IMG/VR virus record: IMGVR_UViG_3300044742_000149
Coordinates: 1-64,000 of that record
DNA: 64,000 nucleotides
Strand: one strand, 5' to 3'
DNA from: a virus
Below, piece by piece: positions 42,423 to 58,650 of the stretch. A model generated the notes under the pieces. It saw nothing but the letters and a program-made list of their open reading frames with translations, was not told where the DNA came from and searched no databases. The position numbers and the translations under genes were made by a program. Each line of letters starts with the position of its first letter. Position 1 is the stretch's first letter.

Positions 42423-42896
42423 CTAACTAACACCAGCGTTCCCCATTCCCCGTGTCCTGCCCGCGAGCCATTCCTGAGCAGCCTTTTTCGTTCGCTCCGC
42501 CGCGATCCGCGCCAAGGAGACCCGTGCGTCACTCGAATCGGGCGCAGTAAGGAAGAAAAGATTCTCCTGTGTAGCTACTCCGAATTGTTTTCCGTTAGGC
42601 GGTTTTCCTGGGTTTTCGATCAACAGCGTGTAGAGGTTGGAGGTCCGCTCGGTACCCCACGAGGCCGGTTTGCGGCGCGCTATCCATCCGACGATGCCCA
42701 GGCCCCTCGCCGCCTTCAGGGCGTTCCCGACGGTCTTGGCGCAGCACTTCGCTCGTTTGGCGATCGCCTCGTGTGACGGGAAAATCCCGCCGCGGCCGCG
42801 AAATTTTGCCAGACAAAGTAGCACATCGCGGAAGGCCCGGGTGAGTTCGCCGGTCCTGAACAACGCCCATATCTTGTTTTCCCACGTATTTCCCAT
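42423..42896 (-). CDS. Winged-helix DNA-binding protein, replication-type
   Basis: 157 residues. A central F-P-S-H-E-A-I-A-K-R-A-K-C-C-A-K-T-V-G-N-A-L-K-A-A motif is a helix-turn-helix of the type found in phage/plasmid replication proteins, followed by a wing (L-G-I-V-G-W-I-A-R-R). The N-terminus I-W-A-L-F-R-T-G-E-L-T-R-A-F-R-D is helical. The C-terminus is basic. GGGGGAAG is near the ATG at 42896; M-F-W-N at 42968 would be longer but lacks a Shine-Dalgarno. Confidence 0.65.
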   Translation of the reverse strand: MGNTWENKIWALFRTGELTRAFRDVLLCLAKFRGRGGIFPSHEAIAKRAKCCAKTVGNALKAARGLGIVGWIARRKPASWGTERTSNLYTLLIENPGKPPNGKQFGVATQENLFFLTAPDSSDARVSLARIAAERTKKAAQEWLAGRTRGMGNAGVS

Positions 42897-43299
42897 GTCT
42901 TCCCCCTTGGCGAGGGCGGCACGGAGGGCGCGTCGCAACTGTTGCAACGGGCTTGCATTCCAAAACATTTTGTAGGAGGGTCAGGACAACACAGCTACCA
43001 ACTGTTGTTTGACCCATCCGGGTTTGTGTTTTGGCGGTGCCCCTCGGTGCCGCCATTCGCATTTTTACCTCATGTCAATCTCCAGCGAGTCGGCGGGAGT
43101 TCCGCCGCTTTTCGGCCATTGTTACGCTGCGGGCTTTGTAACAGGCATGTCAAGACCGCATTGCTCAACGCCTCTGACATCTGTATTCCGATGGCGCGAG
43201 GCGGCGCGGATTCCAGCCGAATACCAGCTCGAAAAACGCCTCAAGATCGTCCATGAGCAGACCGCGCTTCGACCTCGGGGGTGAGTTTGTCGAACGCCA
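42897..43299. other. Gene-poor stretch with small ORFs and repeated CAAC/GTTG motifs
   Basis: About 400 bases without a gene I am sure of. It holds GCAACTGTTGC (42935-42945) and CAACTGTTG (42999-43007), and on the - strand several tiny reading frames: M-A-F-D-K-L-T-P-E-V-E-A-R-S from 43300, M-D-D-L-E-A-F-F from 43254 and M-S-E-A-L from 43180. Their overlaps suggest a broken small gene. A promoter for the winged-helix gene is expected here, but none stands out. Confidence 0.5.
43165..43254 (-). CDS. Possible very small protein
   Basis: 29 residues, M-D-D-L-E-A-F-F-E-L-V-F-G-W-N-P-R-R, ending in basic residues. The sequence is reasonable for a phage microprotein, but there is no convincing ribosome-binding site. 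It could be the frameshifted remainder of the M-A-F-D-K-L-T-P frame that begins at 43300, because joining the two would give one plausible protein. Confidence 0.3.
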   Translation of the reverse strand: MDDLEAFFELVFGWNPRRLAPSEYRCQRR

Positions 43300-43588: not shown

Positions 43589-44025
43589 ACTTCCCCCACC
43601 TGCGCGTCTGACTTCTTACCCCTCCTAGTCTGACCGCCCCGCTTCAGGGCTTTGAGCCTTCCACGCACGAGGTCATACCCGAGCTTCCGCACGTCCTCTG
43701 GCAGGGGGTCGCCGCTAACCTCCTGGAGATCCCGCGCGATGGCGATCACCCCCTTGATTTCCTCCAGGTCGGCCTTCGGGTCTGACGGTGTGACCGGCTG
43801 GTCCGCCACGACGGTCACGCGGGTTTGTTGGCGGTTTTGCTGGATTATCGCCGGTATGTTGCGCTCGAACCATTTACCGATAGGCAGACCATCCCGGTCG
43901 GCGGCGGAGATGGCGGCGTTGCGGATTTCGATCGGAATGCCCTTGATCGTCCACGGCTTGATCCGGTCCGACTGGTCCGATTCTGGCGCGGCAAAGTCTG
44001 CCTCCGGAATTACCTGCACATCCAT
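43585..44025 (-). CDS. Ribbon-helix-helix-like putative DNA-binding protein
   Basis: 146 residues. The segment K-P-W-T-I-K-G-I-P-I-E-I-R-N-A-A-I-S-A-A-D-R-D-G-L resembles an RHH fold strand-helix-helix: a short strand, then I-R-x-x-A-x-x-A-A-x-x-x-G-x-x-I-G-x-W. A Gln-rich middle and a basic C-terminus follow. GAGGAAA precedes the ATG at 44025. It may be a local repressor; the CAAC...GTTG element lies just upstream at 44080-44089. Confidence 0.6.
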   Translation of the reverse strand: MDVQVIPEADFAAPESDQSDRIKPWTIKGIPIEIRNAAISAADRDGLPIGKWFERNIPAIIQQNRQQTRVTVVADQPVTPSDPKADLEEIKGVIAIARDLQEVSGDPLPEDVRKLGYDLVRGRLKALKRGGQTRRGKKSDAQVGEV

Positions 44026-44152
44026 GGTCTGACTTTCCTCCCCGAAAGTCTGACCGATGCCCCGATTCGGTCTTCCTGACAACAAGTTGTTTGGACCATG
44101 CGTCCCCCACGAATCGCTATTCCGGAATTAGTGGCGGATCAGCAACAGCGGG

Positions 44153-44308
44153 TCACTCATCGCGTGCTCCTCCGGGTTCCAACTTCGGGTAGGCGTAGCC
44201 GATGCCGATGGCGAGAGCTTCGGCGCGGGCGTATTCGCGCATCTTCTCGGGGAAGATATGGCGCTCCATCGCATCCAGCATGGCGCGCGATCCTCCAGAT
44301 GGCGTCAT
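44153..44308 (-). CDS. Small hypothetical protein
   Basis: 51 residues, M-T-P-S-G-G-S-R-A-M-L-D-A-M-E-R-H-I-F-P-E-K-M, helical, ending acidic. Its ATG overlaps the previous stop (ATGA). Part of a run of coupled small genes. No function recognised. Confidence 0.6.
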   Translation of the reverse strand: MTPSGGSRAMLDAMERHIFPEKMREYARAEALAIGIGYAYPKLEPGGARDE

Positions 44309-44532
44309 GTCACACCCCCACCAACACCCCGCTCCATCTCCCGTAGCACCAGCCACGTTATGACCGCGGCATGATGATCCCTGCCACGCGCCCGTTCCAT
44401 GGCGTCGCGCAGCGCCGCCGGGTCGCCGTCGAACGTCCCATCGGCGTGCAGCGTGAACCTCACCGCGTCGTCTCCGGTGCCAAAAACGATTTTGACCGGG
44501 AACGTCGGCTCGCCGCTGAAGAAGCTGGTCAT
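44305..44532 (-). CDS. Small hypothetical protein
   Basis: 75 residues. F-P-V-K-I-V-F-G-T-G-D-D-A-V-R-F-T-L-H-A-D-G-T-F-D-G-D gives a beta hairpin, then helices (A-A-L-R-D-A-M-E-R-A). No recognised family. Coupled to both neighbours (TGATGA at the start). Confidence 0.6.
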   Translation of the reverse strand: MTSFFSGEPTFPVKIVFGTGDDAVRFTLHADGTFDGDPAALRDAMERARGRDHHAAVITWLVLREMERGVGGGVT

Positions 44533-44774
44533 CACACCCCCACCAGAACCAAACCCTTCGCCGCGCGCGTGCTGCCCGTGTAAAGCAGCCGCCGCACCTC
44601 CAGCGGGTTGTCGGCCATCCGCGCCCGCGTGTTGGGAATGTCCAGAAACACCCATTGGAACGTCGATCCCTGGCTGGCATGCAGGGTCATCGCATAGATG
44701 CTCTGGGCGCGGATGAACGACGCGGTGAACTCGTGCAGCCGCGCGGCGGCGAGGGGGATCGTGGCTTCGGTCAT
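44532..44774 (-). CDS. Stand-alone UvrD/RecD-type helicase C-terminal domain
   Basis: 80 residues. Y-A-M-T-L-H-A-S-Q-G-S-T-F matches motif V of superfamily 1 helicases (T-x-H-x-S-Q-G), and R-R-L-L-Y-T-G-S-T-R-A-A-K matches motif VI (L-Y-x-x-x-T-R-A). This is the UvrD_C_2 region that normally ends a helicase of 400+ residues. The Walker A and B domain is absent, and the upstream gene encodes an unrelated 54-residue protein. It is either a remnant or a part that works with another ATPase subunit. Confidence 0.75.
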   Translation of the reverse strand: MTEATIPLAAARLHEFTASFIRAQSIYAMTLHASQGSTFQWVFLDIPNTRARMADNPLEVRRLLYTGSTRAAKGLVLVGV

Positions 44775-44935
44775 GCCGTGACCCTCCATTGCATCAGAGC
44801 CTCCGCGAGCAAATCTCGCTCCTCGACTGTCAGGGTTGACCAGGGCGGCGTGACGACCCGATCCTTTCCACGCTTGGCGGCGTATCGGTTGCAGATAGGC
44901 TCACGGTCCAACCGTTGCGCAGCCGAAGCCAGCAT
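44771..44935 (-). CDS. Small hypothetical protein
   Basis: 54 residues: M-L-A-S-A-A-Q-R-L-D-R-E-P-I-C-N-R-Y-A-A-K-R-G-K-D-R, then W-S-T-L-T-V-E-E-R-D-L-L-A-E-A-L-M-Q-W. It ends in a four-base overlap with the helicase-domain gene, so the two are co-translated and could interact. Confidence 0.6.
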   Translation of the reverse strand: MLASAAQRLDREPICNRYAAKRGKDRVVTPPWSTLTVEERDLLAEALMQWRVTA

Positions 44936-44966
44936 GTATCATTTATGTAGCCCGCCGCGTTCGCGC

Positions 44967-45185
44967 TCACCTCCTCCTCCTCCCGCGCCTGGGGGCAGGG
45001 GAGGGCGCTTTAGCGATGCCTGGCATTCGCAGCCCGTCAAGCCGGGCGTGCGCCAGGCAGCACCAGCCCAGCAGCCCGTCGTCGGCGGAGAGCGCCGTCA
45101 CCGTGACGACGGGTGCGTCGCACCAGCGGCAGTCCATCAGCGCCAAGCAGGGCGTCTGGAACACGGTGCGGACGGTGCCACTCAT
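44967..45185 (-). CDS. Small Cys-rich hypothetical protein
   Basis: 72 residues. C-R-W-C-D-A-P-V-V-T-V and G-W-C-C-L-A-H-A-R provide a possible metal-binding C-x2-C ... C-C-x3-H. Basic C-terminus. The start at 45185 is chosen as an internal M-S-G-T-V-R. No function known. Confidence 0.6.
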   Translation of the reverse strand: MSGTVRTVFQTPCLALMDCRWCDAPVVTVTALSADDGLLGWCCLAHARLDGLRMPGIAKAPSPAPRRGRRRR

Positions 45186-45220
45186 CGTGTGGACCCCGCG
45201 ATCGGCGAAGTCGCCGCCGG

Positions 45221-45559
45221 TCACCGCCTGGGCCTCCGGGGCGGCACGGTGACGGGGACCACATCGTCGGCCACACGTTTCAGCGCGGCGGCGAAGTCGT
45301 GGACCCAGGCCAATTGAGCCGCGGTTTGCCGGCTCCGGTTTGCGACAATGTAGAGGGCCAACAGCCCTATCGCCGGCTCATGCCGAAAGAGCGTCTCCGA
45401 CAATTCTCGGACCGCGTCGCCGATCGTCTGCTCCCGTTCCGTTGCCCACATGCGAGCGGCGTTGTCCCAGAGGCCCGCCCAGGTGTGTTCCTCGACAGCA
45501 TCTTGAGGGAAGTCTTTGGCCAGTTTCGCGAACATCGCGAGCGCTTCTTTGTAGGCCAT
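45221..45559 (-). CDS. Hypothetical helical protein
   Basis: 112 residues, mostly helical, starting M-A-Y-K-E-A-L-A-M-F-A-K-L-A and ending in a Pro/Arg tail. A strong AGGAGGAG lies before the ATG. No family recognised. It sits in the recombination operon, downstream of the ATPase. Confidence 0.65.
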   Translation of the reverse strand: MAYKEALAMFAKLAKDFPQDAVEEHTWAGLWDNAARMWATEREQTIGDAVRELSETLFRHEPAIGLLALYIVANRSRQTAAQLAWVHDFAAALKRVADDVVPVTVPPRRPRR

Positions 45560-45835
45560 TCACTCCTCCTGTGCGGTGCGTTGCCCCCGCTTGGTCGGCT
45601 TGGCTGGTTGTGGTGGCGCGCGATCCACGGCCACAACCACCTCGGCGGCGGGCCAGTAGATCCGGCCCTTGCGCGGGGCGTCGGCCAGCAGCGGCTCACC
45701 GTTCAGTTCCTCGATCACCTGGAGCGCCTCGATGCCACGTTCCTCCAGCGCATCCCGAAGGTGATCCCGTATCTGCGTGACATGCAGCGCGTCGTCGGCG
45801 GGAAACCTGACCGTCAGTCGCACCATCTTTGTCAC
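45560..45835 (-). CDS. Small hypothetical protein
   Basis: 91 residues: V-R-L-T-V-R-F-P-A-D-D-A-L-H-V-T-Q-I-R-D-H-L-R-D-A-L-E, a beta-alpha pattern, then a Pro-rich basic tail. The GTG at 45835 overlaps the stop of the ATPase gene and has GAGGAG eight bases before it; an ATG at 45826 is the alternative. Confidence 0.65.
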   Translation of the reverse strand: MTKMVRLTVRFPADDALHVTQIRDHLRDALEERGIEALQVIEELNGEPLLADAPRKGRIYWPAAEVVVAVDRAPPQPAKPTKRGQRTAQEE

Positions 45836-46986
45836 AACGGTAGCTCCTCGGTTTGCTCGGTGGGCTGTTGAGTGGGCGCGCCCGACGGCGAATTGCGCTG
45901 CACGCTGGCGTCGATCGCGGGCTTGAGCCTCGTCCGGTAGAGGTCCCGTTGGTTGTTTCGCAGCCATTCGATGCGGGTCCGCATTTCCGCGTCATCGACG
46001 ATCGCGAGATGCGCCTGGAGATCCGGCGTGCCGAGAAACCGCTCGACCATACTATCCACCCAAGCGATCATCTTTGGATCGGGTCCGGATGACGCTGCTC
46101 CATCGGGTGGTGGGGTCACCTCCTCATCGGGCGGTCCGGACGCATAATCTGGCGCATAATCCGGTGACCCATCCGGTGCCTCCTCGGTCGGCACATCGCC
46201 GCGCGAGGTCCGTTGTCGGGCGGGGCGTGTGGCGATGGGAGCTACGGTATCGCCCCTGGCCCAGGCAGCGATGCGCTCGCCGGTCGCCTCGTCCAGCGGC
46301 GCGGTGAGGTCGATCATGTGATCCAACTTGTCGAGCCGCTTCAGCCACGTCGGCACGCCAGGGTTCTTCGCGTCGAGCAAGAAGCTGCACGTCATCGCGA
46401 ACGGGATGTCGGGCGCGCAAACCGGCGTCGGCGTGGCGTCGGGGTTTGGCACCATCTTGCCGCGCCGGTCCTTGATCAGGTCCAGCTTCTTTTCGGCGTG
46501 GCAACACAACACGATGTGCGCGTTCAATTGCCAGAGACGCTGGAGCAAATGCTTATGCTCCATCTTCGGCTTGATCCACGCGGCGTATTTGAGAGCTTCC
46601 TGCTTGGAGAGATCACCCTTCGTCATCCGATTCAGTTCGTCATTGAACATGTCCAGAACGCCACCGGGGCCGACATGTTCATGGCTGAATGAGTCACAGA
46701 CCCAGACCGAGTGACCCGCGCGCTGCGAGGCCACCGCGGCCGCCTCGAACCGCTTCGGCGTGAACGGTTCCTTCAATTCCCCGTGCAGGAAACTGAACTC
46801 GTCGGCGTAATAAAGTGCGCGGCCATGTTCGGTGTCGCAGAAGCCAATAAGCTTACCGCCAGCGAGACCGGTGGCCAGACGCAGCGCGGACTTCGTCTTG
46901 CCCGAACCCGACGGTCCCGCGAGCATGATCAGAACGCCGACATTGCCTCGTTTCGCTGGGGAATAGATGAGGTCGCCGTCAGCCAC
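45832..46986 (-). CDS. RecA-like AAA ATPase (Sak4/AAA_24 type)
   Basis: 384 residues. Walker A is G-P-S-G-S-G-K-T at 24-31. Walker B is V-W-V-C-D-S-F-S-H-E at 94-103. The order then follows phage Sak4-like ATPases (A-H-I-V-L-C-C-H-A-E-K-K, a D-x-T-x-P-x-x-A-P sensor-like area). The last ~100 residues are acidic and Pro-rich and end in a helical segment. It may promote single-strand annealing or recombination with the nuclease and SbcC-like ATPase in the same operon. The GTG at 46986 has GAGGTGGAG upstream; longer starts add poor sequence. Confidence 0.8.
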   Translation of the reverse strand: MADGDLIYSPAKRGNVGVLIMLAGPSGSGKTKSALRLATGLAGGKLIGFCDTEHGRALYYADEFSFLHGELKEPFTPKRFEAAAVASQRAGHSVWVCDSFSHEHVGPGGVLDMFNDELNRMTKGDLSKQEALKYAAWIKPKMEHKHLLQRLWQLNAHIVLCCHAEKKLDLIKDRRGKMVPNPDATPTPVCAPDIPFAMTCSFLLDAKNPGVPTWLKRLDKLDHMIDLTAPLDEATGERIAAWARGDTVAPIATRPARQRTSRGDVPTEEAPDGSPDYAPDYASGPPDEEVTPPPDGAASSGPDPKMIAWVDSMVERFLGTPDLQAHLAIVDDAEMRTRIEWLRNNQRDLYRTRLKPAIDASVQRNSPSGAPTQQPTEQTEELPL

Positions 46987-47176
46987 ACCGACGCTCCACC
47001 TCGGCCAAGAGCAACTGAGCTTCCTCAACACACGTTGACATCTCCCCCTTGACGATCGGCTGGCCGCGCACCGCGACGATCCGGGCGCCAAGCAGGATGG
47101 TGGCCATGATTGCCAGCATCATCTCCCGGTCCAGAGGAGCGATCTCGACGTTGTCGTTGACCAGGTCCATCGTCAT
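46979..47176 (-). CDS. Small hypothetical protein in recombination operon
   Basis: 65 residues, with a hydrophobic helix (L-A-I-M-A-T-I-L-L-G-A-R-I-V) and a helical acidic end (C-V-E-E-A-Q-L-L-L-A-E-V-E-R-R-C-G). The ATGA start overlaps the nuclease stop and its own end overlaps the ATPase start. It may be a small partner protein of either. Confidence 0.6.
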   Translation of the reverse strand: MTMDLVNDNVEIAPLDREMMLAIMATILLGARIVAVRGQPIVKGEMSTCVEEAQLLLAEVERRCG

Positions 47177-48108
47177 CCTCCCAGGTTTCCCGTGTCGAGC
47201 ATCATCTTCACGGCGGCGTTGTCCGCTTCCGACCGCACGCGGCCACGACCGGATTGCCGTTGCCACATCCGTTCTTTTAGTTTCCACGGTGGAATGTCGA
47301 TCCATTCTACGTCGTCGGGATAAGCCGGCCACTCGTCGGTCTCGCGGCAGCGTTGCCACAGCGCGATGGCGTCGTGAATTTCTTCGTTCGCGTCATCGAG
47401 CGCGGCGGGCGTGTACTCAAATACGCGAATGCCATATGGCGGCTTCGTTTCGATCACGCAGAACCGCATTCCCTCTGGCGGTTCGCCGCGCACGCACTCA
47501 GCGCCACGAGGGTAGTAGGCCGCTTGCATGTCATAACCGAATGCCGACCGGGCGAACGTGTCGGCGGAAGCGAGGCCGCTCGTCGTCTTCAGATCCCAGA
47601 GAAAAGCGCCGGGTTCATCAGGCAGCCAGTCGACCTTGCAGCGGCCCCACTCGTTTCCCTCAGTCCATATCAGGGTCTGTTCGGGTTTGCCGGCGGTGAA
47701 CGCACCCGTGCGCAGCCGGAACCGTTCCAGCTCGTCGACGACGCGACGGACACCCTCATAGCTGGTCAGCTTGAGTGGGATTTTTCCCTCCGCGATGGCG
47801 GCTTCGCGCATCTCCTTGGCTTTGTTCGTTCTGAAGTCGGTTACGTTCAGGACGCGGACGCGGTCCTCTCCCTGGAGAAACATCGCGTGGGCCACGGTCC
47901 CGACGTCCTGCGCGTCGGTAGAGTCCCACTCCGCATCCGGTGCGCCGCCGAGCCGTGGGTGCGCGGCCCAGGCGTGGCGCGGAGAGACCAGCATCAGGCG
48001 AGCGGTCGTGTTGTTGAGTGAAGGCACGACGACCGGGTCAGCGAGGTAGGCCGGATCGCTGATCTGGTAGATGCCCGGCTGATCGATACGTGGGGCGGTC
48101 TCGCTCAT
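47173..48108 (-). CDS. PD-(D/E)XK exonuclease, RecE-C/DUF3799-like
   Basis: 311 residues. G-T-V-A-H-A-M-F (His74), C-K-V-D-W (Asp160) and L-W-D-L-K-T-T (Asp172 and Lys174) mark the core of a PD-(D/E)XK phage exonuclease related to RecE and to DUF3799 proteins. It would process DNA ends to give single strands for recombination. An R-x-x-A-Y-Y region and an acidic C-terminus (E-E-I-H-D-A-I-A-L-W) follow. It is coupled by four-base overlaps to the ATPase gene before and the small gene after. Confidence 0.85.
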   Translation of the reverse strand: MSETAPRIDQPGIYQISDPAYLADPVVVPSLNNTTARLMLVSPRHAWAAHPRLGGAPDAEWDSTDAQDVGTVAHAMFLQGEDRVRVLNVTDFRTNKAKEMREAAIAEGKIPLKLTSYEGVRRVVDELERFRLRTGAFTAGKPEQTLIWTEGNEWGRCKVDWLPDEPGAFLWDLKTTSGLASADTFARSAFGYDMQAAYYPRGAECVRGEPPEGMRFCVIETKPPYGIRVFEYTPAALDDANEEIHDAIALWQRCRETDEWPAYPDDVEWIDIPPWKLKERMWQRQSGRGRVRSEADNAAVKMMLDTGNLGG

Positions 48109-49472
48109 GGCGTGGCCTCTTGTGGGGCGCGCTTACGAACCCTGCCGGCGACAAGTTCGATCCCGGTCGGGCTGTCGGAGCCAACGCGCTCCAGCCAGAC
48201 CTGATACCCACGCTCCCGCGCCATCTGCCTGACGAGTTCCATCCCATCAGAGTCCAGCAATGAACCGTCACGAACCCGGATCACCTTCAGCCGCGGGTTC
48301 AATGCCATTGCCAGGGCGATGCTGGTACGGAGTTGCTCAGCGTCGGAGGCCTGATCGAACGGTAGATCGTTGAGCCGCACACCGCCCTCGGTGGTGAGCG
48401 TAAGGCCTGGGATTGGCATCTCGGCCGCGGCGATCTTCGCGTCCGCCTCATGCCTGCGAGCCGCCATCGCGTCAGTCAGAGCCTTCGCCTCGCCGTCCAG
48501 GCGCTTGGCCTCGACCTCTGCTTCACGACGTTGCCGTGCCACATCGATCCGCGTGTTGATACCGCGCGCCTGGTTCACTTTGTTCAGTATCAGGTTGGTG
48601 TCCACGATTTCCGGCAGCGGCGGGGCGTCGTGCAATTTCTGTCGGAGTTCCTCGGCGTCCAACCGGAGCAGTTCAGCGGCGGCGCCTGTCTCACTGGCCT
48701 TCTTGGCCAGGGCGTGTGCTTCGGCGAGCATTTCCTCGGCCCGCCGCAGCTTGACCTCAATCTCTGTCTCCACGTTCTCGCGACGGACGCGCCTTGTCTC
48801 TGTCTCGGTGTTCAGCTTCCCCGCCGCGATGAATTCCTGCTCCATGGCTCCGAGATCGATCGGAGCCTCGGGCAGTTCGTGTTCACCAGGGACAACGAAT
48901 TTGGCGATCAGACCTTTGAGTTGTCGCACTTGCGTATTGAGATCGCGACGCGCGTTGAAGTCGGCGTTGTTCGCCATCTCGATCGCTTCGAAGTCGACAT
49001 CAGGAACGAACTGGCGCAGCAGCGCGAACTGCTCCTTCTGGTCCATTCTCAGAAACCCCAGCGGATCGAGGCTCAACTTATTAAAAAAGCTGTCTACGAG
49101 TTCCTGCGGGCGCCGATATTCAGCACCGGCCGCGTTGCGAACGGACAACGAGGTCGTGACACCACTCGCGCCCTGGCTGATATTTCGACGCACGACGAAT
49201 TCGCCGAGGTCGATCTGACAGAATCCTTCGTCGGCGCCGCGGCGGATCGGCTCGGCGGCGATCTCCCTCGACCCGGCGAGGGTCCAGAACAGCGCGTCGA
49301 GCACGCTGGTCTTGCCGCTGCCGTTCTTGCCGGTGAGTTCCACTATCTCCCCGTCGGGGCGGATGTGGACGACCTCGAGCCGCTTGATATTTTCGGCAAT
49401 GAATTCCACAATTCTCATGCCGCCCGCCTCTGCTGGAGGCTGCCCGGCATCATCCCTCGAAATGTCAGCCAT
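48105..49472 (-). CDS. SbcC/RecN-like AAA ATPase with central coiled coil
   Basis: 455 residues, Walker A G-K-N-G-S-G-K-T at 48-55. A coiled coil spans about 190-350, shorter than in true SMC proteins. The C-terminal part has S-D-A-E-Q-L-R-T-S-I-A-L-A-M-A-L as a degenerate ABC signature and V-I-R-V-R-D-G-S-L-L-D-S-D. It probably acts on DNA ends alongside the PD-(D/E)XK nuclease. It is the first gene of the operon after the operator-controlled promoter at 49500-49528. A start at M-R-I-V-E-F (49418) is also possible. Confidence 0.85.
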   Translation of the reverse strand: MADISRDDAGQPPAEAGGMRIVEFIAENIKRLEVVHIRPDGEIVELTGKNGSGKTSVLDALFWTLAGSREIAAEPIRRGADEGFCQIDLGEFVVRRNISQGASGVTTSLSVRNAAGAEYRRPQELVDSFFNKLSLDPLGFLRMDQKEQFALLRQFVPDVDFEAIEMANNADFNARRDLNTQVRQLKGLIAKFVVPGEHELPEAPIDLGAMEQEFIAAGKLNTETETRRVRRENVETEIEVKLRRAEEMLAEAHALAKKASETGAAAELLRLDAEELRQKLHDAPPLPEIVDTNLILNKVNQARGINTRIDVARQRREAEVEAKRLDGEAKALTDAMAARRHEADAKIAAAEMPIPGLTLTTEGGVRLNDLPFDQASDAEQLRTSIALAMALNPRLKVIRVRDGSLLDSDGMELVRQMARERGYQVWLERVGSDSPTGIELVAGRVRKRAPQEATP

Positions 49473-49499
49473 CGTACCTCGCCCCTTTTCAGGGAGGCG

Positions 49500-49528
49500 A
49501 TTAAGGGACATTATGTCCCCATGGTCAA
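49500..49528 (-). promoter_or_regulatory. Leftward early promoter with operator in its spacer
   Basis: Read on the - strand, TTGACC (49523-49528) is the -35 and CTTAAT (49500-49505) the -10, separated by 17 bp. The perfect palindrome GGGACATAATGTCCC (49505-49519) fills most of the spacer. Transcription would begin about 20 bases before the SbcC-like gene. Repressor bound here would block RNA polymerase directly. Confidence 0.75.
49505..49519. promoter_or_regulatory. Operator, GGGAC-N5-GTCCC (left)
   Basis: Perfect dyad with a 5-bp centre ATTAT. Same arms as the site between repressor and cro at 50394-50408. A weaker second match, GGGACGATACGTCAC, lies at 49584-49598 and a poor one at 49528-49542, which suggests a short operator cluster. 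Confidence 0.75.
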
Positions 49529-49583
49529 GAACGCCACGTCCCGGCACGTTCCCGCGTGGATTGCTAAAGGACAATGCCACTTT

Positions 49584-49598
49584 GGGACGATACGTCAC
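49584..49598. promoter_or_regulatory. Weaker operator-like site
   Basis: GGGACGATACGTCAC, one arm mismatch to the consensus. It sits 65 bp upstream of the leftward operator, in the region between the repressor gene's end and the early promoter. It could allow cooperative binding or loop formation. Confidence 0.5.
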
Positions 49599-49703
49599 CC
49601 TCGCCGGTCTGGCGCTCGCCGTGTGTTACGTTAAGATTACCGGAGAGGAGTCCGACCGTGCCGTCAGTCTCGTTTACCCCGGCCGGTTCGGATCGGCCTC
49701 AAT

Positions 49704-50378
49704 CTATCCGTTTGACGTCGGACGCGCCCTTTTTCTTGCGGGGGCGATATTGCGTGGCCGGCTGCGTGTGCGATGCCCACTCGGTTTTACGTCCGAAGGT
49801 GCGGACCCTGGAAGCAGGCCAGGATTACGCCGCAGCAATTCCTCTCCAAACTCAGCGGCGATTCCGTCGAGGATGCCTCGATACAGGAAGTCAAGCCCCA
49901 CCCGATGCTGATCACCGAACTGGCGCGAAAATTGTATCAATGTATCAACCGGGGGTATTGCCGCGCCACTCTCCCAGGACAGCCAGGTAGCAACGTCAAC
50001 ATCCATGAGAGCCGCGGTCTTTTCGACTGACGGCTCAAGGATCAGGCGCACCATTCGCAGCCTGTCGCCGACCGAATACTCGCCTTCGGCGAGCCCGCGT
50101 CTATCTATCAAAGTGTCGTTCCCCGCGACTCGGCCAGCGATCAGCATGTCCAGTGACACGCCGGTCAATTTCTGGATCGCGATAAGAACTTCCATCGGCG
50201 CCCCGAGTTCCGCCCGCTCGTAGCGAGAGTAACGCTCCCGCTTGATCCCGAGCGCGGCCGAGAACGCGGCGATAGAATAATCCGTCACACCTAATTTTGC
50301 CCCGTGGGCATAGCGAAGGGCGCGCAATCGACGCGCCACCGCTGCCAGCACGGCATGATCTCTCGTGCCATTTTCCAT
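49704..50378 (-). CDS. Repressor with two HTH domains
   Basis: 224 residues. The first HTH covers ~32-80 (Y-S-I-A-A-F-S-A-A-L-G-I-K-R-E-R-Y-S-R-Y-E-R). The second, at ~102-150 (V-E-K-T-A-A-L-M-D-V-D-V-A-T-W-L-S-W-E-S-G-A-A-I-P), also fits the Cro/CI family. The C-terminus is basic and has no LexA-type protease motif, so RecA-triggered self-cleavage is unlikely. It is divergent from the Cro-like gene with three operator-like dyads nearby, so it is the probable lysogeny repressor. No clear Shine-Dalgarno precedes the ATG. Confidence 0.85.
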   Translation of the reverse strand: MENGTRDHAVLAAVARRLRALRYAHGAKLGVTDYSIAAFSAALGIKRERYSRYERAELGAPMEVLIAIQKLTGVSLDMLIAGRVAGNDTLIDRRGLAEGEYSVGDRLRMVRLILEPSVEKTAALMDVDVATWLSWESGAAIPPVDTLIQFSRQFGDQHRVGLDFLYRGILDGIAAEFGEELLRRNPGLLPGSAPSDVKPSGHRTRSRPRNIAPARKRARPTSNG

Positions 50379-50393
50379 ATTACGCAGTCATAA

Positions 50394-50408
50394 GGGACCA
50401 CACGTCCC
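50394..50408. promoter_or_regulatory. Operator between repressor and cro
   Basis: GGGACCACACGTCCC, perfect arms GGGAC/GTCCC with a 5-bp centre. It lies about 15 bases upstream of the repressor start and is a likely site of autoregulation, overlapping the repressor promoter. On the - strand TTATGA directly after it could be the -10 of that promoter. Confidence 0.7.
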
Positions 50409-50430
50409 CTGTCCGGGGGGGTGTTCGGGC

Positions 50431-50459
50431 TTGCCTTTGGAGACGCTACGTCCCAATGT
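50431..50459 (+). promoter_or_regulatory. Candidate rightward promoter with embedded operator
   Basis: TTGCCT (50431-50436) as -35 and CAATGT (50454-50459) as a poor -10 flank GAGACGCTACGTCCC (50440-50454), with exactly the same 17-bp geometry as the leftward promoter. The -10 match is weak, so the promoter call rests on the parallel. Transcription would start close to the second ATG of the Cro-like gene, giving a nearly leaderless mRNA. Confidence 0.45.
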
Positions 50460-50710
50460 CGCGGGCCATGACGTCCTTCTCAACCCTCCTGGCCCACCAC
50501 AACGTGACCGAGGCCGACGTCGCCGCCGCTCTCGGGGTCACCCCGAAAGCCGTGCGGAACTGGCGCAATGGCGCCTACGGGCCGTCGCCGGCCATGGCAC
50601 GCGCCATCGAAAAAGAATTCGGCATCCCGAAGCATCTGCTGCGACCGGACATCTGGGACGCGCCAGTCGAACCGAAAAGCAGTCGCCGAAACGAAAAAGA
50701 ACCCGCTTAA
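50456..50710 (+). CDS. Cro/YdaS-like HTH protein
   Basis: 84 residues. V-T-E-A-D-V-A-A-A-L-G-V-T-P-K-A-V-R-N-W-R-N-G is a clear helix-turn-helix, and F-G-I-P-K-H-L-L-R-P-D-I-W-D is the ending of the YdaS/Cro-type family. It faces the repressor with operators between, so a Cro function (lytic switch) is inferred. Two ATGs are possible, 50456 and 50468; the second may lie at the start of the transcript. Confidence 0.8.
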   Translation: MSRAMTSFSTLLAHHNVTEADVAAALGVTPKAVRNWRNGAYGPSPAMARAIEKEFGIPKHLLRPDIWDAPVEPKSSRRNEKEPA

Positions 50711-50735
50711 TTCCAAACTCGAGGGGCTAAAAATA

Positions 50736-51320
50736 ATGTCAGACGATCCAGCAGCCAGCGTGATGGCCGTAAAACCCGAAACATTCCTCGGCCACTGGCG
50801 CGACATGCGCGACGCCAAAGATGAGGCGGGCACTGCCGCGACGGAGGTCGCGCGACGGAAAAAGGCGGCGAAACGGGCCGGCGTGGATCTGGACGTGGTC
50901 AAGCTGGTCGAGAAACTCAGTGACCTGGAAGACGACGAGCGTCAGGCGTTCCTCTCCAAGGTCGAGACATATTGCGGCTGGCTGAAGCTGCCGCTCGGCG
51001 CGTTCTCGGCGGGGATCGTTATCGAGGAGCCGAAAGAATCATCGCGCGAAGCCTTCAACCGATGGGAGGCCGGTCAGGATGGACACGAGGCCGGGCTCAA
51101 CGGCTCACCGAAAGAAGCCAACCCGCATCGTAACGGGTCGCCGGAAGCCCAAGAGTGGGCGAAGAAGTGGAAGATCGGCTTCGACGCCAACCAGCGAAAG
51201 ATCGCGGCGAAGTTGGCGAAGGGTACCGGCGCTCCGAGGAAAGGGGCGAACAAACCGAACGCCGCGGTGAGCGGCAAGATGGCCGCGGCTGGCGAAGGGC
51301 TGACATCCACGATCAACTAA
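50736..51320 (+). CDS. GapR/DUF2312-like helical protein
   Basis: 194 residues. The region A-K-R-A-G-V-D-L-D-V-V-K-L-V-E-K-L-S-D-L, followed by D-D-E-R-Q-A-F-L, has the hallmark pattern of DUF2312/GapR-type proteins of alphaproteobacteria, though it lacks their short, compact form. The C-terminal ~90 residues are polar, with a Lys/Ala-rich end. A DNA-binding role is possible. GAGGGG is upstream. Confidence 0.55.
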   Translation: MSDDPAASVMAVKPETFLGHWRDMRDAKDEAGTAATEVARRKKAAKRAGVDLDVVKLVEKLSDLEDDERQAFLSKVETYCGWLKLPLGAFSAGIVIEEPKESSREAFNRWEAGQDGHEAGLNGSPKEANPHRNGSPEAQEWAKKWKIGFDANQRKIAAKLAKGTGAPRKGANKPNAAVSGKMAAAGEGLTSTIN

Positions 51321-51333
51321 ATGGGGTGCCGTC

Positions 51334-51774
51334 GTGGGGCACCCCGCGTTTCAGCTCGATGAATGGGTCGTACCCGAAGTCGACCTACAGGCTGCTGGCG
51401 CACAGGCATTCGATCGCCTGTTGCGTCCACCAGCCATGTGGACGGCCATCGCGCTCGGGCACATCGAACTAACCGGGCAGCAAGCAGCACGGCTCTCTCG
51501 CATCGGGCTCAAACGATCGTGGCCCGACCACCTGGTCATTTGGCCTGGGAATGTCGTCGGCATTGAGTGGAAGACCGGCGACGGCAAGCTATCGATCTCG
51601 CGCATGGTTCACTCGAAACGCGGCAAGCCTCGTTGGGTGGAGGGCCAGCGCGAAACATTTCCGAAACTCAAAGCGGCGGGGATGCGGATCTACGTCTGCA
51701 TCAGCGTCGGCCATGCGCTGCGCATTCTGAAGGCGCTCGAATGTCCAATGGTGAAGTGGGAGATCACCGCATGA
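51334..51774 (+). CDS. VRR-NUC-type nuclease
   Basis: 146 residues. P-D-H-L-V-I-W-P-G-N-V-V-G-I-E-W-K-T-G-D-G-K-L-S contains the D...E-x-K core of the VRR-NUC fold (PD-(D/E)XK superfamily). Q-R-E-T-F, A-G-M-R-I-Y-V-C and V-G-H-A-L-R-I-L follow as the standard helices and strands. It may resolve or nick branched DNA in replication. The start is a GTG with only a poor Shine-Dalgarno. The 3' end is repeated downstream, see 52436. Confidence 0.8.
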   Translation: MGHPAFQLDEWVVPEVDLQAAGAQAFDRLLRPPAMWTAIALGHIELTGQQAARLSRIGLKRSWPDHLVIWPGNVVGIEWKTGDGKLSISRMVHSKRGKPRWVEGQRETFPKLKAAGMRIYVCISVGHALRILKALECPMVKWEITA

Positions 51775-52436
51775 CAACTCCCAGCTTCGCCATGGCACGC
51801 GGGTTTTCTTTCAAAGTCCTCCACACCGAGGACGGCACCCGCAAAGTCGCGCGATTTATTTGTTCCACGTGCGGCGATTGCCTCGACATCACGAACGGAA
51901 GTGGCGGCAAGGCCGCTGAATTCTTCGTTGCTCGCGCGGACCGTATGGGTTGGGCCGCGGACGCCCGCAAGCGATCGAAATGCTACTGCCCCCGCTGCCT
52001 GGGGGACATGAAAGCAAAACAATTCGCTCCGGAACGATCTCCGCCGCAGACCTCATTGCCGCTTGGGCCGGTCGTGATCTCACCACCACCGTCTGTCATC
52101 GACGACCAACCGAAGCAGAAGGAAGCAGTGACAGTGCAGACAGCTATCAAACCCCGCGAGCCCACTGCCGAAGAACGGATGCGCATCAGAGGCTTTTTCG
52201 ACAAGTGTTTCGATGACGCACAAGGCGTCTATCTCGACGATATGTCCGATCAAAAGATCGGCGAGGAAATCAACGTGCCCTGGTCGCTCGTCACGCGCAT
52301 TCGCGAGATGGCGTACGGACCTATCCGCTCCGATCCGGAACTCGCGGCGCTGAAGACACGGCAAGCCGCACTGCAAACGCAGATGGATCAACTCAAAGCC
52401 GACATCGAGGCATTCGGAAAGAGGCGGGCGGCGTAA
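51771..52436 (+). CDS. Zinc-ribbon plus HTH protein
   Basis: 221 residues. C-S-T-C-G-D-C-L-D and C-Y-C-P-R-C-L-G-D form a four-Cys ribbon in the first ~85 residues. A Pro-rich linker follows. Then D-Q-K-I-G-E-E-I-N-V-P-W-S-L-V-T-R-I-R resembles a helix-turn-helix, ending in a coiled coil. It may be a DNA-binding regulator. It overlaps the nuclease gene by four bases. Confidence 0.65.
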   Translation: MTTPSFAMARGFSFKVLHTEDGTRKVARFICSTCGDCLDITNGSGGKAAEFFVARADRMGWAADARKRSKCYCPRCLGDMKAKQFAPERSPPQTSLPLGPVVISPPPSVIDDQPKQKEAVTVQTAIKPREPTAEERMRIRGFFDKCFDDAQGVYLDDMSDQKIGEEINVPWSLVTRIREMAYGPIRSDPELAALKTRQAALQTQMDQLKADIEAFGKRRAA

Positions 52437-52480
52437 TGGCGCTCAACTGTCCAATGTTGAACTGGGAGATAACGGCGTGA
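52436..52480 (+). repeat. Duplicated 3' end of the VRR-NUC gene
   Basis: The frame M-A-L-N-C-P-M-L-N-W-E-I-T-A-stop parallels the nuclease C-terminus A-L-E-C-P-M-V-K-W-E-I-T-A-stop at 51736-51774. The nucleotide match covers ~40 bases with only a few differences. It occupies the junction between two genes, and the following GTG starts at its stop. This is the scar of a duplication or of a recombination event at that boundary. Confidence 0.75.
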
Positions 52481-52752
52481 AGATTGCGAAAGCCCAATCA
52501 GCGCCTCCAACCTGCAAGATCGTAGGAAGAAACGCTCGCACGAAACGTGAACGTCTCATAGAGCAATATCTTTCCTGGCCGACTGGTGATGGTGGCTATC
52601 CGCCGCAATTCCTCTTCGTTGGGTCAGACATCATCGTTGCTGACGTCGACCACGACGGTGGTGCGGAGTTGACCATCGTCACCATCGACGAGTTTGCCTC
52701 CGATCATGACTGGATCTTCGAGGATGACTGGAAGCCGTACCATGAGCGGTGA
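52477..52752 (+). CDS. Hypothetical phage protein
   Basis: 91 residues, basic N-terminus, acidic C-terminus (A-S-D-H-D-W-I-F-E-D-D-W). D-I-I-V-A-D-V-D-H-D-G is prominent, but no known domain is recognised. GTG start overlaps the stop of the duplicated remnant; its end overlaps the next gene by 11 bases. Confidence 0.55.
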   Translation: MKIAKAQSAPPTCKIVGRNARTKRERLIEQYLSWPTGDGGYPPQFLFVGSDIIVADVDHDGGAELTIVTIDEFASDHDWIFEDDWKPYHER

Positions 52753-53338
52753 GCTGGTTCGTTACGATGCGATGTGTCATGCGATCGCGGCGGCGTACCA
52801 GATCGATGAGGTCAAGGACATCCGCGACAAGGCCATCGCGCTGGAAGTGTACGCCAGACAGGCACGCAACACGGAAGCGGAACGGCAGGCGTGCGAGATC
52901 AGACTGCGAGCTGAACGTAAGGCGGGACAGCTAACCGCGAAACTTCCAACGGCACGAGGCGAGCGGACGGATTTAACTTCATCGCATGGCGCGACGAAGT
53001 TCGATGCATTGGCGGAAGCTGGGATCAGTCCTGATCAGGCGTCCAAATGGGAAAGGCTCGGTGGCATTCCCGACGATGTGTTTGAAACCGCGTTGCACGA
53101 CGGGAAGCCAACTACGAACGGCATCATCTCCGCATACGCGCCGTCCCCCGAACGCGACGCGCTCAAAACCAAGGCGCTCTGGCTGTGGGGCCGCCTGCAA
53201 GACTTCGAGCGCGAAGGACTGCTCGAAGAACGCCCCGCCGATCTGCTCGCGGTGATGTCCGATCACATGCGAGCAACAACGCTGGCGTTATCACCACGGG
53301 TAATAGAATGGTTGGGAGGGTTAAACGATGACGGCTGA
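52742..53338 (+). CDS. Phage protein of the ParB-methyltransferase neighbourhood
   Basis: 198 residues. I-D-E-V-K-D-I-R-D-K-A-I-A-L-E-V-Y-A-R-Q-A and E-I-R-L-R-A-E-R-K-A-G-Q-L are the typical helices of a widespread phage/actinobacterial family that occurs near DNA methyltransferase and ParB-type genes. F-D-A-L-A-E-A-G-I-S-P-D-Q-A-S-K-W-E suggests a HTH. Function unknown; possible regulator. Confidence 0.65.
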   Translation: MSGELVRYDAMCHAIAAAYQIDEVKDIRDKAIALEVYARQARNTEAERQACEIRLRAERKAGQLTAKLPTARGERTDLTSSHGATKFDALAEAGISPDQASKWERLGGIPDDVFETALHDGKPTTNGIISAYAPSPERDALKTKALWLWGRLQDFEREGLLEERPADLLAVMSDHMRATTLALSPRVIEWLGGLNDDG

Positions 53339-53774
53339 GGAACTGCTTTATGCGGCTGTGCAGAAGGTCATCGATGACTATTCCCATGTGGGTGAGGTTA
53401 GCCCGTCGTGGGTCGCCACACAGGTCATGCGCGATATACATTTCGCGCGAGAGCTACACGAGTTGGGCTATGTCGGCTGTCACCTTGAGGTCCGGCAAAT
53501 AGCGCGACACAAGCTGCGGAAGCAGCACGATCCAAACGTCCGTATTGACGACGTAATCAAAGATGAGCAGCAGGAGATGTTTCCTGAAACACTTCAGGAC
53601 CGTTATCCGCGGAGGCAGAAGCCGGGAGAAGAACCGATCTATGCCCTGCGACATCTACTGACTCATGACGACGTTCAGTTCAATACTGACCGGATGCGCC
53701 GCGGTGGACGAGCTTTGTTGAAACACGCTGACGCGCTCGACGAGTGGGATCTGTCCAGGCGGGGGGCGGCATGA
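53328..53774 (+). CDS. Hypothetical phage protein
   Basis: 148 residues, alpha-helical N-terminus (E-E-L-L-Y-A-A-V-Q-K-V-I-D-D-Y), then a more mixed region with E-M-F-P-E-T-L-Q. No motif recognised. Overlaps by 11 bases upstream and four bases downstream. Confidence 0.55.
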   Translation: MTAEELLYAAVQKVIDDYSHVGEVSPSWVATQVMRDIHFARELHELGYVGCHLEVRQIARHKLRKQHDPNVRIDDVIKDEQQEMFPETLQDRYPRRQKPGEEPIYALRHLLTHDDVQFNTDRMRRGGRALLKHADALDEWDLSRRGAA

Positions 53775-53962
53775 CCGATCCCCCGATCCGCATCCTCACC
53801 GCCGAAGAATGGGACGAGATGATGCTGGCGCCGCTGCGCGAGTATTGGCGGCTGCAATCTCTCGCGTACCAGCGGAATTCCCTCGGGCTGACCTGCCTGG
53901 GCGGCGATCCATACCCGACCGGCGATTGGTCGACGATAGCCAGGAAGGACGACGCGCCATGA
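53771..53962 (+). CDS. Small hypothetical protein
   Basis: 63 residues, M-T-D-P-P-I-R-I-L-T-A-E-E-W-D-E-M-M-L-A-P-L-R-E-Y, helical, then a Pro/Gly-rich end. Four-base overlaps on both sides. No function recognised. Confidence 0.6.
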   Translation: MTDPPIRILTAEEWDEMMLAPLREYWRLQSLAYQRNSLGLTCLGGDPYPTGDWSTIARKDDAP

Positions 53963-54225
53963 CCGTGTACCGAGCAGACGGAACCGAACTGCTGCACCCC
54001 GCGGACTGGCCATACGAACGCGCCGAGCATCCGATGCCCGAAGTCCCCAAGCTGACGTTCACCCGCGATCGCGATCACCTCGTCATCTACGCGGCCGGCG
54101 ATGGCGTCACGTTGGATCGCAACACCATCCGCGCGATCGGCATCATGATGGTCAATCTGGCAAACGACATCGAGGCTGAGGACAGCCGAAACCATTCACA
54201 AGCCACGAAACCCTCTGACCAATAG
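53959..54225 (+). CDS. Small hypothetical protein
   Basis: 88 residues: L-T-F-T-R-D-R-D-H-L-V-I-Y-A-A-G-D-G gives two strands, N-T-I-R-A-I-G-I-M-M-V-N-L-A-N-D-I-E a helix. No family recognised. Coupled to the gene before it. Confidence 0.6.
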   Translation: MTVYRADGTELLHPADWPYERAEHPMPEVPKLTFTRDRDHLVIYAAGDGVTLDRNTIRAIGIMMVNLANDIEAEDSRNHSQATKPSDQ

Positions 54226-54236
54226 GACTAGGCGTT

Positions 54237-55016
54237 ATGGCCGCGTTCGATCATTGGCTTCCGTTGCATGTCGGGGATTATCTCGCTGACACGATGCACC
54301 TCAGCACGTTGCAGCATGGCATCTACATCCGCCTGATCATGCACTATTGGAAACGACGCGGCCTGCCCGCCGACGAGCGGTCGCTTGCCCAGATCGCCGG
54401 GATACCGACGCTCAAGTTCCGGGTCCATGGAGGGCCGGTGATGGCGCTGTTTACCCCGGTCGGCGTCGGATCTGAGTCAAAACTCCTGGGGACTTTGAAT
54501 AAAAAAGTAGACACGAACGACGGGGTATCTGGCGAGTCAAAACCCCATGGGGTTAATGGTGTCGACCATGTTACGGTTCCCGACATGGCGCCGACCCTGT
54601 CTCACAAGCGCCTCGATGCCGAATTGGCCCGTGCCGTGGGCATTTTCGAGCACCGCAAGGACGTCGCTACCCGCTCAGCGGCAGCACGCCGAGGTGGCAA
54701 AACCAACGGTCACAAGAGTGAGCATTTGCTCAACGGAAAAGCAGTCGAATCCCCGACTCCCGCGCCTCAGCGCGCACGCGACTCTACCACCACAACCTCT
54801 GAAGAGTCCCCCCTAACGCCCCCCCAGGGGGGCAAGCGCGAGCGTGGAATTTCAAAACCTCGACCAACAAAACCAGAGCCCGTCACTTTCCGGTGCGGGT
54901 TTGGCGCAAGCGCCGTCAGCGACATGCAGGAGGCAGTCGACTATGCCGAACCAAGCAACCCACCTACCGGTCGTCCGCAACTGGTGTCAGTCGCTGGGCG
55001 TCTTGTCAGCGGTTAG
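54237..55016 (+). CDS. DUF1376-family replication-associated protein
   Basis: 259 residues. F-D-H-W-L-P-L-H-V-G-D-Y-L-A-D-T-M-H-L-S-T, then G-I-Y-I-R-L-I-M-H-Y-W and G-L-P-A-D-E-R-S-L-A-Q-I-A-G-I are the signature of DUF1376/YdaU-type proteins, which occur in phage replication modules. The remainder is low-complexity and polar. It overlaps the next gene and probably works with it in replication initiation or helicase loading. Confidence 0.75.
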   Translation: MAAFDHWLPLHVGDYLADTMHLSTLQHGIYIRLIMHYWKRRGLPADERSLAQIAGIPTLKFRVHGGPVMALFTPVGVGSESKLLGTLNKKVDTNDGVSGESKPHGVNGVDHVTVPDMAPTLSHKRLDAELARAVGIFEHRKDVATRSAAARRGGKTNGHKSEHLLNGKAVESPTPAPQRARDSTTTTSEESPLTPPQGGKRERGISKPRPTKPEPVTFRCGFGASAVSDMQEAVDYAEPSNPPTGRPQLVSVAGRLVSG

Positions 55017-55431
55017 CATTTCTCGCGCCGAGGCCGAAATGAAGCTGGCGGCGTTCGTTCCGCTGCTCATGCGGGAGTTCCCCGACGGCGCGTTCACGGC
55101 TGATTCGTTGAGCCATTGCGCCAAGGCAGCGATCAAGGGGTTCCCGACCTATGGCGAGCTGGTGCACTCGCTCAGCGAATGGTGGCGCGAGCATCAGCCG
55201 GTGCGGCCGGCGTTGCCACCACCGGAGCCGCTGCCGTTTCACGTTCCGACACCGGAAGAACTCGCCCACATCCGCGCCTGCGTCGAGGAAGTGACTGCCA
55301 GGGTCAGCGCCCACGCCGACGAGGCCGCGGCCGCGTCCCGTTTCGGCGCGCGGCATCTCTCGCCCGGCGTGCTCGATCAGATCAACCCGCTGCCGAATGG
55401 GCGCAAGCGCGTCATGGACGGCGTGTCGTGA
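54943..55431 (+). CDS. Helical protein of the replication region
   Basis: 162 residues from the ATG at 54943, which has GGAGGC upstream. A-E-A-E-M-K-L-A-A-F-V-P-L-L-M-R-E-F-P and A-A-I-K-G-F-P-T-Y-G-E-L-V are helical, followed by a Pro-rich linker and a second helical half. It may be a loader or partner of the DUF1376 protein. Not assigned to a family. Confidence 0.6.
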   Translation: MPNQATHLPVVRNWCQSLGVLSAVSISRAEAEMKLAAFVPLLMREFPDGAFTADSLSHCAKAAIKGFPTYGELVHSLSEWWREHQPVRPALPPPEPLPFHVPTPEELAHIRACVEEVTARVSAHADEAAAASRFGARHLSPGVLDQINPLPNGRKRVMDGVS

Positions 55432-55607
55432 GCATCGATTACGACCACGCCACGATGAACTTGTTGATCAGCCTGCGCGGTGGCTTGCCCGACGCGTGCG
55501 ACTTCTGCGGCCAGCCGTTCACCGATCAGCGTTGGCCGGTGCCCGAAGAAGCGGGCGAGTGGGCATGCAGCGAATGCGAGGCACGTTGGGCGAAGGAGGT
55601 GAAATGA
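55428..55607 (+). CDS. Small zinc-ribbon protein
   Basis: 59 residues. C-D-F-C-G-Q-P-F and C-S-E-C-E-A-R-W form C-x2-C ... C-x2-C, ending basic. GTG overlaps the previous stop by four bases; it ends by four bases into the next gene. Probably nucleic-acid binding. Confidence 0.65.
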   Translation: MSIDYDHATMNLLISLRGGLPDACDFCGQPFTDQRWPVPEEAGEWACSECEARWAKEVK

Positions 55608-56167
55608 CAACGCTGGCAGAGGCCCCGAATGATCGGCTGGTGATGTATCTCCAGGTCCGTTTCGACCTCAACACGCTGATCGAAACCGGGACCTTCGAGG
55701 GCACGAGCACGGTCTGGGCGGCTGAGCGGTTCCGCGAGGTTCTCACGATCGACATTCGTCGGGACTTCCTCGATCAGGCCCAAACCGCCTGTTCGGATCA
55801 TCAAAACGTCCTGTTCATGGTTGGCGATACGCGGTTCTGGCTGCGCAACCTCGTCCCGACGCAGGAGGTGCCAGTGATGTTCTGGCTCGATGCGCACTCC
55901 GCCCCAGGGATGTTCGGGGATCACGACGACTGGCCGGTGCTGGACGAACTGGCGATCATCACCCAGTCGCCGTCGCGCCATTTCATTCTGATCGACGACG
56001 CGCATTGTTTTCTCGCCGGAACGCCATTCCCGGCTTGCCCGAAGTTCGACGAGGTTTTCGATTTCGCGACCGACAACGGCTATGCGACCCGGATCATCGG
56101 CGACGTGATCGTGCTGGTGCCGCAGGCCTCGGTCGGAGCCCTCGACGAGTTCGAGGCCGCGGCATGA
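55604..56167 (+). CDS. Class I SAM methyltransferase-fold protein
   Basis: 187 residues. L-I-E-T-G-T-F-E-G-T-S-T-V-W-A-A is a motif I variant, V-L-T-I-D-I follows as the acidic strand, and V-M-F-W-L-D-A-H-S and I-L-I-D-D-A-H mark the later catalytic edge. It resembles small FkbM/TylF-type O-methyltransferases. No DPPY-type motif of DNA adenine methylases is seen, so the substrate may be a sugar or small molecule. It lies in the replication operon with ParB-like and Trm1-like genes. Confidence 0.6.
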   Translation: MTTLAEAPNDRLVMYLQVRFDLNTLIETGTFEGTSTVWAAERFREVLTIDIRRDFLDQAQTACSDHQNVLFMVGDTRFWLRNLVPTQEVPVMFWLDAHSAPGMFGDHDDWPVLDELAIITQSPSRHFILIDDAHCFLAGTPFPACPKFDEVFDFATDNGYATRIIGDVIVLVPQASVGALDEFEAAA

Positions 56168-57114
56168 CGACGATCACGCTCCGCGCCCGCCAACTCGACC
56201 AGCCGCTCGCTGTAGGCGATCTCGTGCGCAGAGCGGCGCCGGGGGCGGTCTACCGCGTCGTGTCGCTCACCAGAGTCCGCGTTTCCGGCGAGGTCGGCAA
56301 AGATCACTTTCGGTTGATCCTGGAACGACTTCAGGAGCAACTTACCCCCCCCGGGGCCGAGGTCCGGCCGTGGCCCCGCGACCGGACCGCGCCACGACAG
56401 AGGCGTTCCGTTTGTTCAGGAGCAACGACCGACCCTGGCCCCCCAGAGCCCGCGACCGCCCGGCTCGCGCGCATTCGGGCGAAAGCGCCGCTGATGCTCG
56501 ACATGGCGCTCGAAGCGATCCGAAAGGGCCGCGTCACGGATCATCTGGCCCAACTCGCCAGAGTGGCGCGCGTCGGCCGGGACGACGGGGTTCGCGAGGG
56601 AAGGGACTACGGGCCGGGGATACGGCTGCGACCGGTGCGAGGGCGGCGACAGTCCGGCGTTCTGCGCGAAGCGGACGTCGAGGTCGTCACCGGAGCCGAT
56701 CCCACCAAACCCAACATCAACGTCTCTCGTGCGCGGCGCTGCGATCCGCTGGTCAAACTGCAGAAAGCCGGGACGATCGGCGGGCGGCACGTCGACGCGG
56801 CGGAGATGCTCCGTGAGCAGATGGAGGCGTCCGAGGCGGGGGTCTGCGCGGGCGACCTGTCGTCGGTGCATTTGCCGGCCCACCAGCGCGCCAACATCAC
56901 AGACAGGCAAATCCTGGCCCTGGGGAGGGCCAGGGAGGCCCTGGGGGCTGTCGCCGCACCCAACAGGCCATCCGTGCTCTGGACCGTCTCAGGGGGCAAC
57001 GTGGCGGGCTACGCGGCCTATGTCGGAATGCGCCACACGACCGCGGCGAGCCGTCTCCTGACCGGGCTCGAGGAACTGGCCGACCACTATCGCCTGCCGG
57101 GAGGGGGCAACTGA
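56164..57114 (+). CDS. DUF6456-like phage regulator
   Basis: 316 residues. The last third (D-P-L-V-K-L-Q-K-A-G-T-I-G-G-R-H-V-D-A-A-E-M-L-R, then L-G-R-A-R-E-A-L and G-M-R-H-T-T-A-A-S-R-L-L-T-G-L) follows the DUF6456 pattern of alphaproteobacteria and their phages, with a HTH near the end. Residues ~65-100 form a Pro/Arg-rich linker. It may be a transcription regulator. It shares four bases with the gene before it and one with the ParB-like gene. Confidence 0.6.
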   Translation: MTTITLRARQLDQPLAVGDLVRRAAPGAVYRVVSLTRVRVSGEVGKDHFRLILERLQEQLTPPGAEVRPWPRDRTAPRQRRSVCSGATTDPGPPEPATARLARIRAKAPLMLDMALEAIRKGRVTDHLAQLARVARVGRDDGVREGRDYGPGIRLRPVRGRRQSGVLREADVEVVTGADPTKPNINVSRARRCDPLVKLQKAGTIGGRHVDAAEMLREQMEASEAGVCAGDLSSVHLPAHQRANITDRQILALGRAREALGAVAAPNRPSVLWTVSGGNVAGYAAYVGMRHTTAASRLLTGLEELADHYRLPGGGN

Positions 57115-57722: not shown

Positions 57723-57723
57723 G

Positions 57724-58616: not shown

Positions 58617-58622
58617 GTCGAT

Positions 58623-58639: not shown

Positions 58640-58650
58640 TGAGAGGGGTT

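Follow-up and report, generated by a model that had tools for sequence, protein, structure and literature searches.

The window, a 64,000-nucleotide stretch of a 68,004-base virus record, very probably contains a lambda-style immunity region in which a repressor controls cro, the recombination operon and probably also its own gene. With considerable confidence it is read as a tailed-phage immunity region, where a 224-residue repressor of prophage type would act on 15-bp dyads, silence the promoters PL and PR and regulate itself, with a Cro counterpart. The genes follow the lambda order, the recombination operon and its promoter PL pointing left, then the leftward repressor gene, and then PR reading rightward into a cro-like gene and on to the replication genes (Table 1). 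The repressor gene is divergent from the cro-like gene with early operons on either side, and the identical operator stands on both sides of it, overlapping the early promoters, as in the lambdoid design. A genetic switch with one operator on two sides had been proposed in a first-pass annotation. The proposal is supported by the gene order, by a dyad search that presupposed no motif and by relatives in which positions, spacing and promoter geometry persist despite a changed operator sequence; this comparative evidence is the strongest support for the switch. The term lambda-like, used in the same annotation, holds for the design of the region but not for family membership, because the repressor carries a pair of HTH domains but lacks S24, the OR2 site is missing and no integrase was found.

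Table 1. Features of the proposed immunity region and of the adjoining genes, with positions in the window.
Feature	Position	Strand	Remarks
AAA_24 ATPase, next gene of the recombination operon	45832-47040	-	phrog_1366
Exonuclease VIII-like, DUF3799 PD-DEXK	47173-48108	-	phrog_412
SbcC/RecF-like ATPase, first gene of the PL operon	48105-49472	-	phrog_1499; leader of ~21 nt, plausible Shine-Dalgarno
PL, recombination operon promoter	49500-49528	-	TTGACC 49523-49528, 17-bp spacer, CTTAAT 49500-49505; predicted +1 ~49493
Left operator GGGACATTATGTCCC, perfect	49505-49519		fills the PL spacer; same geometry in relatives
Auxiliary left operator AGAACGCCACGTCCC, 2 mismatches	49528-49542		23 bp from 49505; overlaps the PL -35 by one base
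Distal left operator GGGACGATACGTCAC, 1 mismatch	49584-49598		L015 counterpart is the distal perfect site at 5643
Repressor, 224 aa, tandem XRE/HTH	49704-50378	-	HTH1 34-78, HTH2 ~104-156; Pfam HTH_31/HTH_3; phrog_2328 transcriptional repressor
Putative PRM	contains the 50394 dyad	-	weak hexamers CCCGGA-N17-CTTATG
Right operator GGGACCACACGTCCC, perfect	50394-50408		inside the putative repressor promoter PRM
PR, cro promoter	50431-50459	+	TTGCCT 50431-50436, 17-bp spacer, CAATGT 50454-50459; predicted +1 ~50466
Right operator GAGACGCTACGTCCC, 1 mismatch	50440-50454		fills the PR spacer
Tentative weak right operator GGGCCATGACGTCCT, 2 mismatches	50463-50477		covers the cro start codon; basis is the 23-bp spacing from 50440 only
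cro-like gene, 80 aa	50468-50710	+	HTH_3/YdaS-like, phrog_35; L015, L016 and L067 homologues likewise divergent from the repressor
Gene at the cII position	50736-51320	+	weak ribosome modulation factor (RMF)-like domain; next to cro also in L015, L016

The four GGGAC-N5-GTCCC dyads of the first-pass annotation, two perfect and two with one mismatch, were recovered by a rescan at the same coordinates and with the same mismatch counts, and the repressor gene lies between the two groups as had been described. Left out there were the two weaker sites at 49528 and 50463, which have two mismatches each and stand at exactly 23 bp from one of the strong sites, and the location of the site at 50394 upstream of the repressor gene, at the expected place of the repressor's own promoter. 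The perfect sites at 49505 and 50394 are the only ones in the whole virus record. In the intergenic sequence bordering the repressor gene (two stretches, 327 bases in all) there are four sites with at most one mismatch (0.044 expected), two of them perfect (0.002 expected). When up to two mismatches are allowed, the motif is not enriched across the window (45 found, 55 expected), and three sites per side are obtained only by including sites with two mismatches. Two further one-mismatch sites, at 8999 and 44092, are without the promoter grammar and were taken as chance occurrences. Nothing resembling the dyad is present at the OR2 position (50417), so self-activation of the lambda type is not indicated.

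A search that presupposed no motif gave the same result. Each of the 1024 possible five-base arms was combined with gaps of 0-9, and dyads were scored if they occurred both between repressor and cro and beyond the other end of the repressor gene. In the window GGGAC-N5 ranked first with a score of 6, while 2000 shuffles never exceeded 4. The best dyads in the related loci L015 and L067 were GGAAC-N5 and CCAAC-N5, and the best in L069, CAACA with a gap of 3, covers the same sites as CCAAC dyads in another register. At each locus the observed score was reached by none of the 2000 shuffles.

The positions of the operators within the promoters also agree with the first-pass annotation, which had placed one dyad in the 17-bp spacer of the promoter for the recombination operon and another in identical geometry in a candidate cro promoter. 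Of the 18 operator sites in the four independent loci, 8 have a TTGnC whose first base is exactly 9 bp ahead of the dyad (0.15 expected, P ~3e-12), and each of the other offsets from 4 to 19 occurs at most once. The operator would thus fill the spacer between the -35 and -10 hexamers. The PR layout recurs in L015, L067 and L069. Neither PL nor PR was listed in a generic sigma-70 scan because their -10 hexamers are poor. The predicted PR start is only two bases ahead of the cro ATG, and in all five loci read (the window, L015, L016, L067 and L069) the cro start codon lies 10-13 nt past the operator, which corresponds approximately to +1; the cro mRNA is therefore probably leaderless, judging from these positions. 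The predicted start of the repressor transcript, ~4 nt from its ATG, would make this message nearly leaderless as well, but the PRM hexamers are poor. Leaderless cI and cro mRNAs have been reported for phage PY54 (PMC4488713).

The second domain of the repressor is HTH_19-like in Pfam. The predicted model, with a mean pLDDT of 68 from an alignment of three sequences only, has two helical domains, a disordered linker (82-99) and a disordered tail (191-224). For this model Foldseek gives P22 C2 (28-30% identity) and ImmR as the best PDB matches, at E-values above 0.01. The first domain thereby resembles the P22 C2/434-type repressors in predicted fold, and it also matches P22 C2 weakly by sequence; unlike in that type, a second XRE domain replaces the C-terminal oligomerisation and cleavage domain. 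No S24 match was found anywhere in the record and a second HTH is present instead, so the protein does not belong to the self-cleaving CI/LexA type. It should consequently escape RecA-stimulated self-cleavage, and induction would have to proceed otherwise. Operator binding is likely to reside in HTH1, since relatives with a single HTH have 5-5-5 dyads too. Two-domain HTH_XRE regulators are known from Wolbachia phage WO (PMC9203015). The likeness drawn is one of domain layout, two XRE domains in one phage regulator, and the WO proteins are not known to sit in an operator region of CI/Cro type.

In the proposed mechanism the repressor would bind the dyads, with a dimer as the probable binding form and HTH1 as the probable contact. 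From the -35/-10 spacers of PL and PR it would keep RNA polymerase away and so shut down both early operons, and at the 50394 dyad in its own putative promoter it would bring its own gene under negative autoregulation. Expression from the divergent promoter would supply the Cro-like protein, which probably recognises these sites as well and would tip the balance towards lytic growth. Lysogeny and leaderless transcripts are likewise predicted.

The related loci fall into two sets. L015 and L016 were found by an exonuclease VIII scan, in records of 64.8 and 69.6 kb, and carry repressor, cro and RMF-like genes in the order of the window. Their TerL proteins are 70% and 62% identical, respectively, to that of the window phage. 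The L015 repressor is 36% identical to that of the window, and GGAAC-N5-GTTCC occurs at the four counterpart positions, perfectly at two of them and with one mismatch at the others; 0.43 such sites are expected in 12.9 kb. This operator has a superficial likeness to a GAAC/GTTC box, which raises the question of whether the sites are bound by a protein of the host, such as an SOS-type LexA. Since the sequence varies with each phage repressor while the positions stay constant, and known LexA boxes have a gap unlike that of these dyads, a host protein is scarcely credible here. L016, with a repressor 35% identical, yielded no equivalent set of operators, nor a convincing one in the motif-free dyad search, which is the main gap in the comparison. 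Its cro promoter has the same geometry with a weak dyad, a tentative ATAAC-N5-GTTAT site, and a site with two mismatches lies on the far side.

L067/L068 and L069 were found by a repressor-profile scan; L067 and L068 are identical over the 2.2 kb compared. Their repressors are more distant relatives that have the first HTH only. CCAAC-N5-GTTGG flanks the repressor gene on both sides, with four sites in each locus. The L067 dyads are at 3878/3924 (46 apart) and 4393/4416 (23 apart), those of L069 at 3887/3910 and 4337/4360 (23 apart in each pair). Both L067 spacings recur in the window: the sites at 50394 and 50440 are 46 bp apart, as in the corresponding pair 3878/3924, and an upstream accessory site at 23 bp, like that at 49528, is found in L067 (4393/4416) and in L069 (both pairs). 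Over the three operator types the inner AC/GT is invariant and the outer bases vary.

In L067 and L069 the shared CCAAC operator goes together with similar recognition helices in Cro (T[AS]EAVRLW). Such co-variation of Cro with operator type would also be seen if the dyads were bound mainly by the Cro-like protein, the 224-aa protein acting elsewhere or on some of the sites only. The dyads are, however, present at the far end of the repressor gene too, by the PL operon, as expected for operators shared as by lambda CI and Cro, and relatives of the repressor follow the operator system across loci, so that binding mainly by Cro is considered unlikely. These loci, in which the operator sequence has changed and the positions, spacing and promoter geometry are kept, make the specificity between repressor and operator directly testable.

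No matches were obtained in viral_contigs with the repressor and the ATPase as single queries, or in genome_contigs with TerL and the repressor alignment. The annotated phages with the closest ATPases (Caulobacter Sansa, Erythrobacter ZS04 and R6L) had no matching operator in the stretches fetched, and window positions 44000-60000 had no near DNA relative among annotated phages.

The same dyad is found elsewhere in another setting. A scan of 2.9 million viral contigs for two exact GGGAC-N5-GTCCC dyads at 23 bp gave 19 contigs with the exact tandem (L078-L096), from phages of very different G+C content, with dyads 22-23 bp apart (e.g. L081 4997-5056, L091 2400-2460). The array lies inside a replication-initiator-like gene in nine of the ten contigs examined, and three of five such proteins scanned match HTH_36. 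These arrays are probably widely shared replication iterons, and the contigs were rejected as immunity regions since those examined have this appearance. The dyad sequence alone is consequently no identifier of an operator; position and comparison are. A protein of the same initiator type (HTH_36) is encoded in the window at 42423-42968, without iterons in its own gene.

With this gene at hand, and with exact tandem dyads at 23-bp spacing in the initiator-like genes of other phages, the window sites might be taken for origin iterons bound by an HTH_36-type initiator. The sites form two groups 0.9 kb apart in promoters, though, and not a tandem array within an initiator gene, no such dyads are found in the window HTH_36 gene or the DUF1376 region, and the relatives keep the positions and not the sequence. 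An origin function of the dyads is highly improbable on this evidence.

The classical lambda switch design is already known, and what the region adds are variant features, namely a two-HTH repressor without a cleavage domain, a strict grammar of spacer-filling operators and an absent integrase. The layout from PL over the repressor gene to PR and cro, the use of one dyad on both sides and the position of operators within the promoters are shared with lambda, as are the spacing of ~23 bp between adjacent sites and the predicted leaderless repressor message. The PR and PRM sites are 47 bp apart in lambda and 46 bp in the window. The window dyads are of 15 bp (5-5-5) whereas lambda operators are of 17 bp, and the region further differs from lambda in that the OR2 position is vacant, the repressor combines two HTH domains with the lack of S24, no integrase was found and the PL operon has no recognised N-like first gene. 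Elsewhere in the window, an 85-aa ORF at 44532-44789 matches only the helicase C-terminal domain UvrD_C_2 and may represent a gene remnant or one part of a gene that has been split.

Tyrosine integrase (PF00589), serine integrase/resolvase (PF00239) and rve transposase (PF00665) are absent from the records of the window, L015 and L016 (G000, G001 and G002), which may be incomplete. An integrase is present in the records of L067/L068 and L029. A switch of CI/Cro type combined with the lack of a chromosomal integration system is also known from the immB regions of the telomere phages N15, PY54 and phiKO2, but neither protelomerase (PF16684) nor ParA (PF13614) was found in the phages of the window, L015 and L016. 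This raises the questions of how phages with a lysogeny-type switch and no known integrase persist, and of what the second HTH does in the place of the CI C-terminal domain. A speculative and rather doubtful reading is that a phage group without recognisable integration or partition functions has entrusted a switch of CI/Cro style to a repressor with two HTH domains; HTH2 would there replace the CI C-terminal domain, for instance by joining the operators of the two sides, and induction would take place without RecA-stimulated cleavage. The three records are labelled linear in IMG/VR, so that ends may be missing, and all end at a similar distance from TerL (3.3-3.6 kb in the L015 and L016 records, 2.4 kb in that of the window). 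Tandem 15-bp repeats (GGGTCCGAGGGTGCC) are found at 124-168 in the window, near the record end, where assembly may have stopped.
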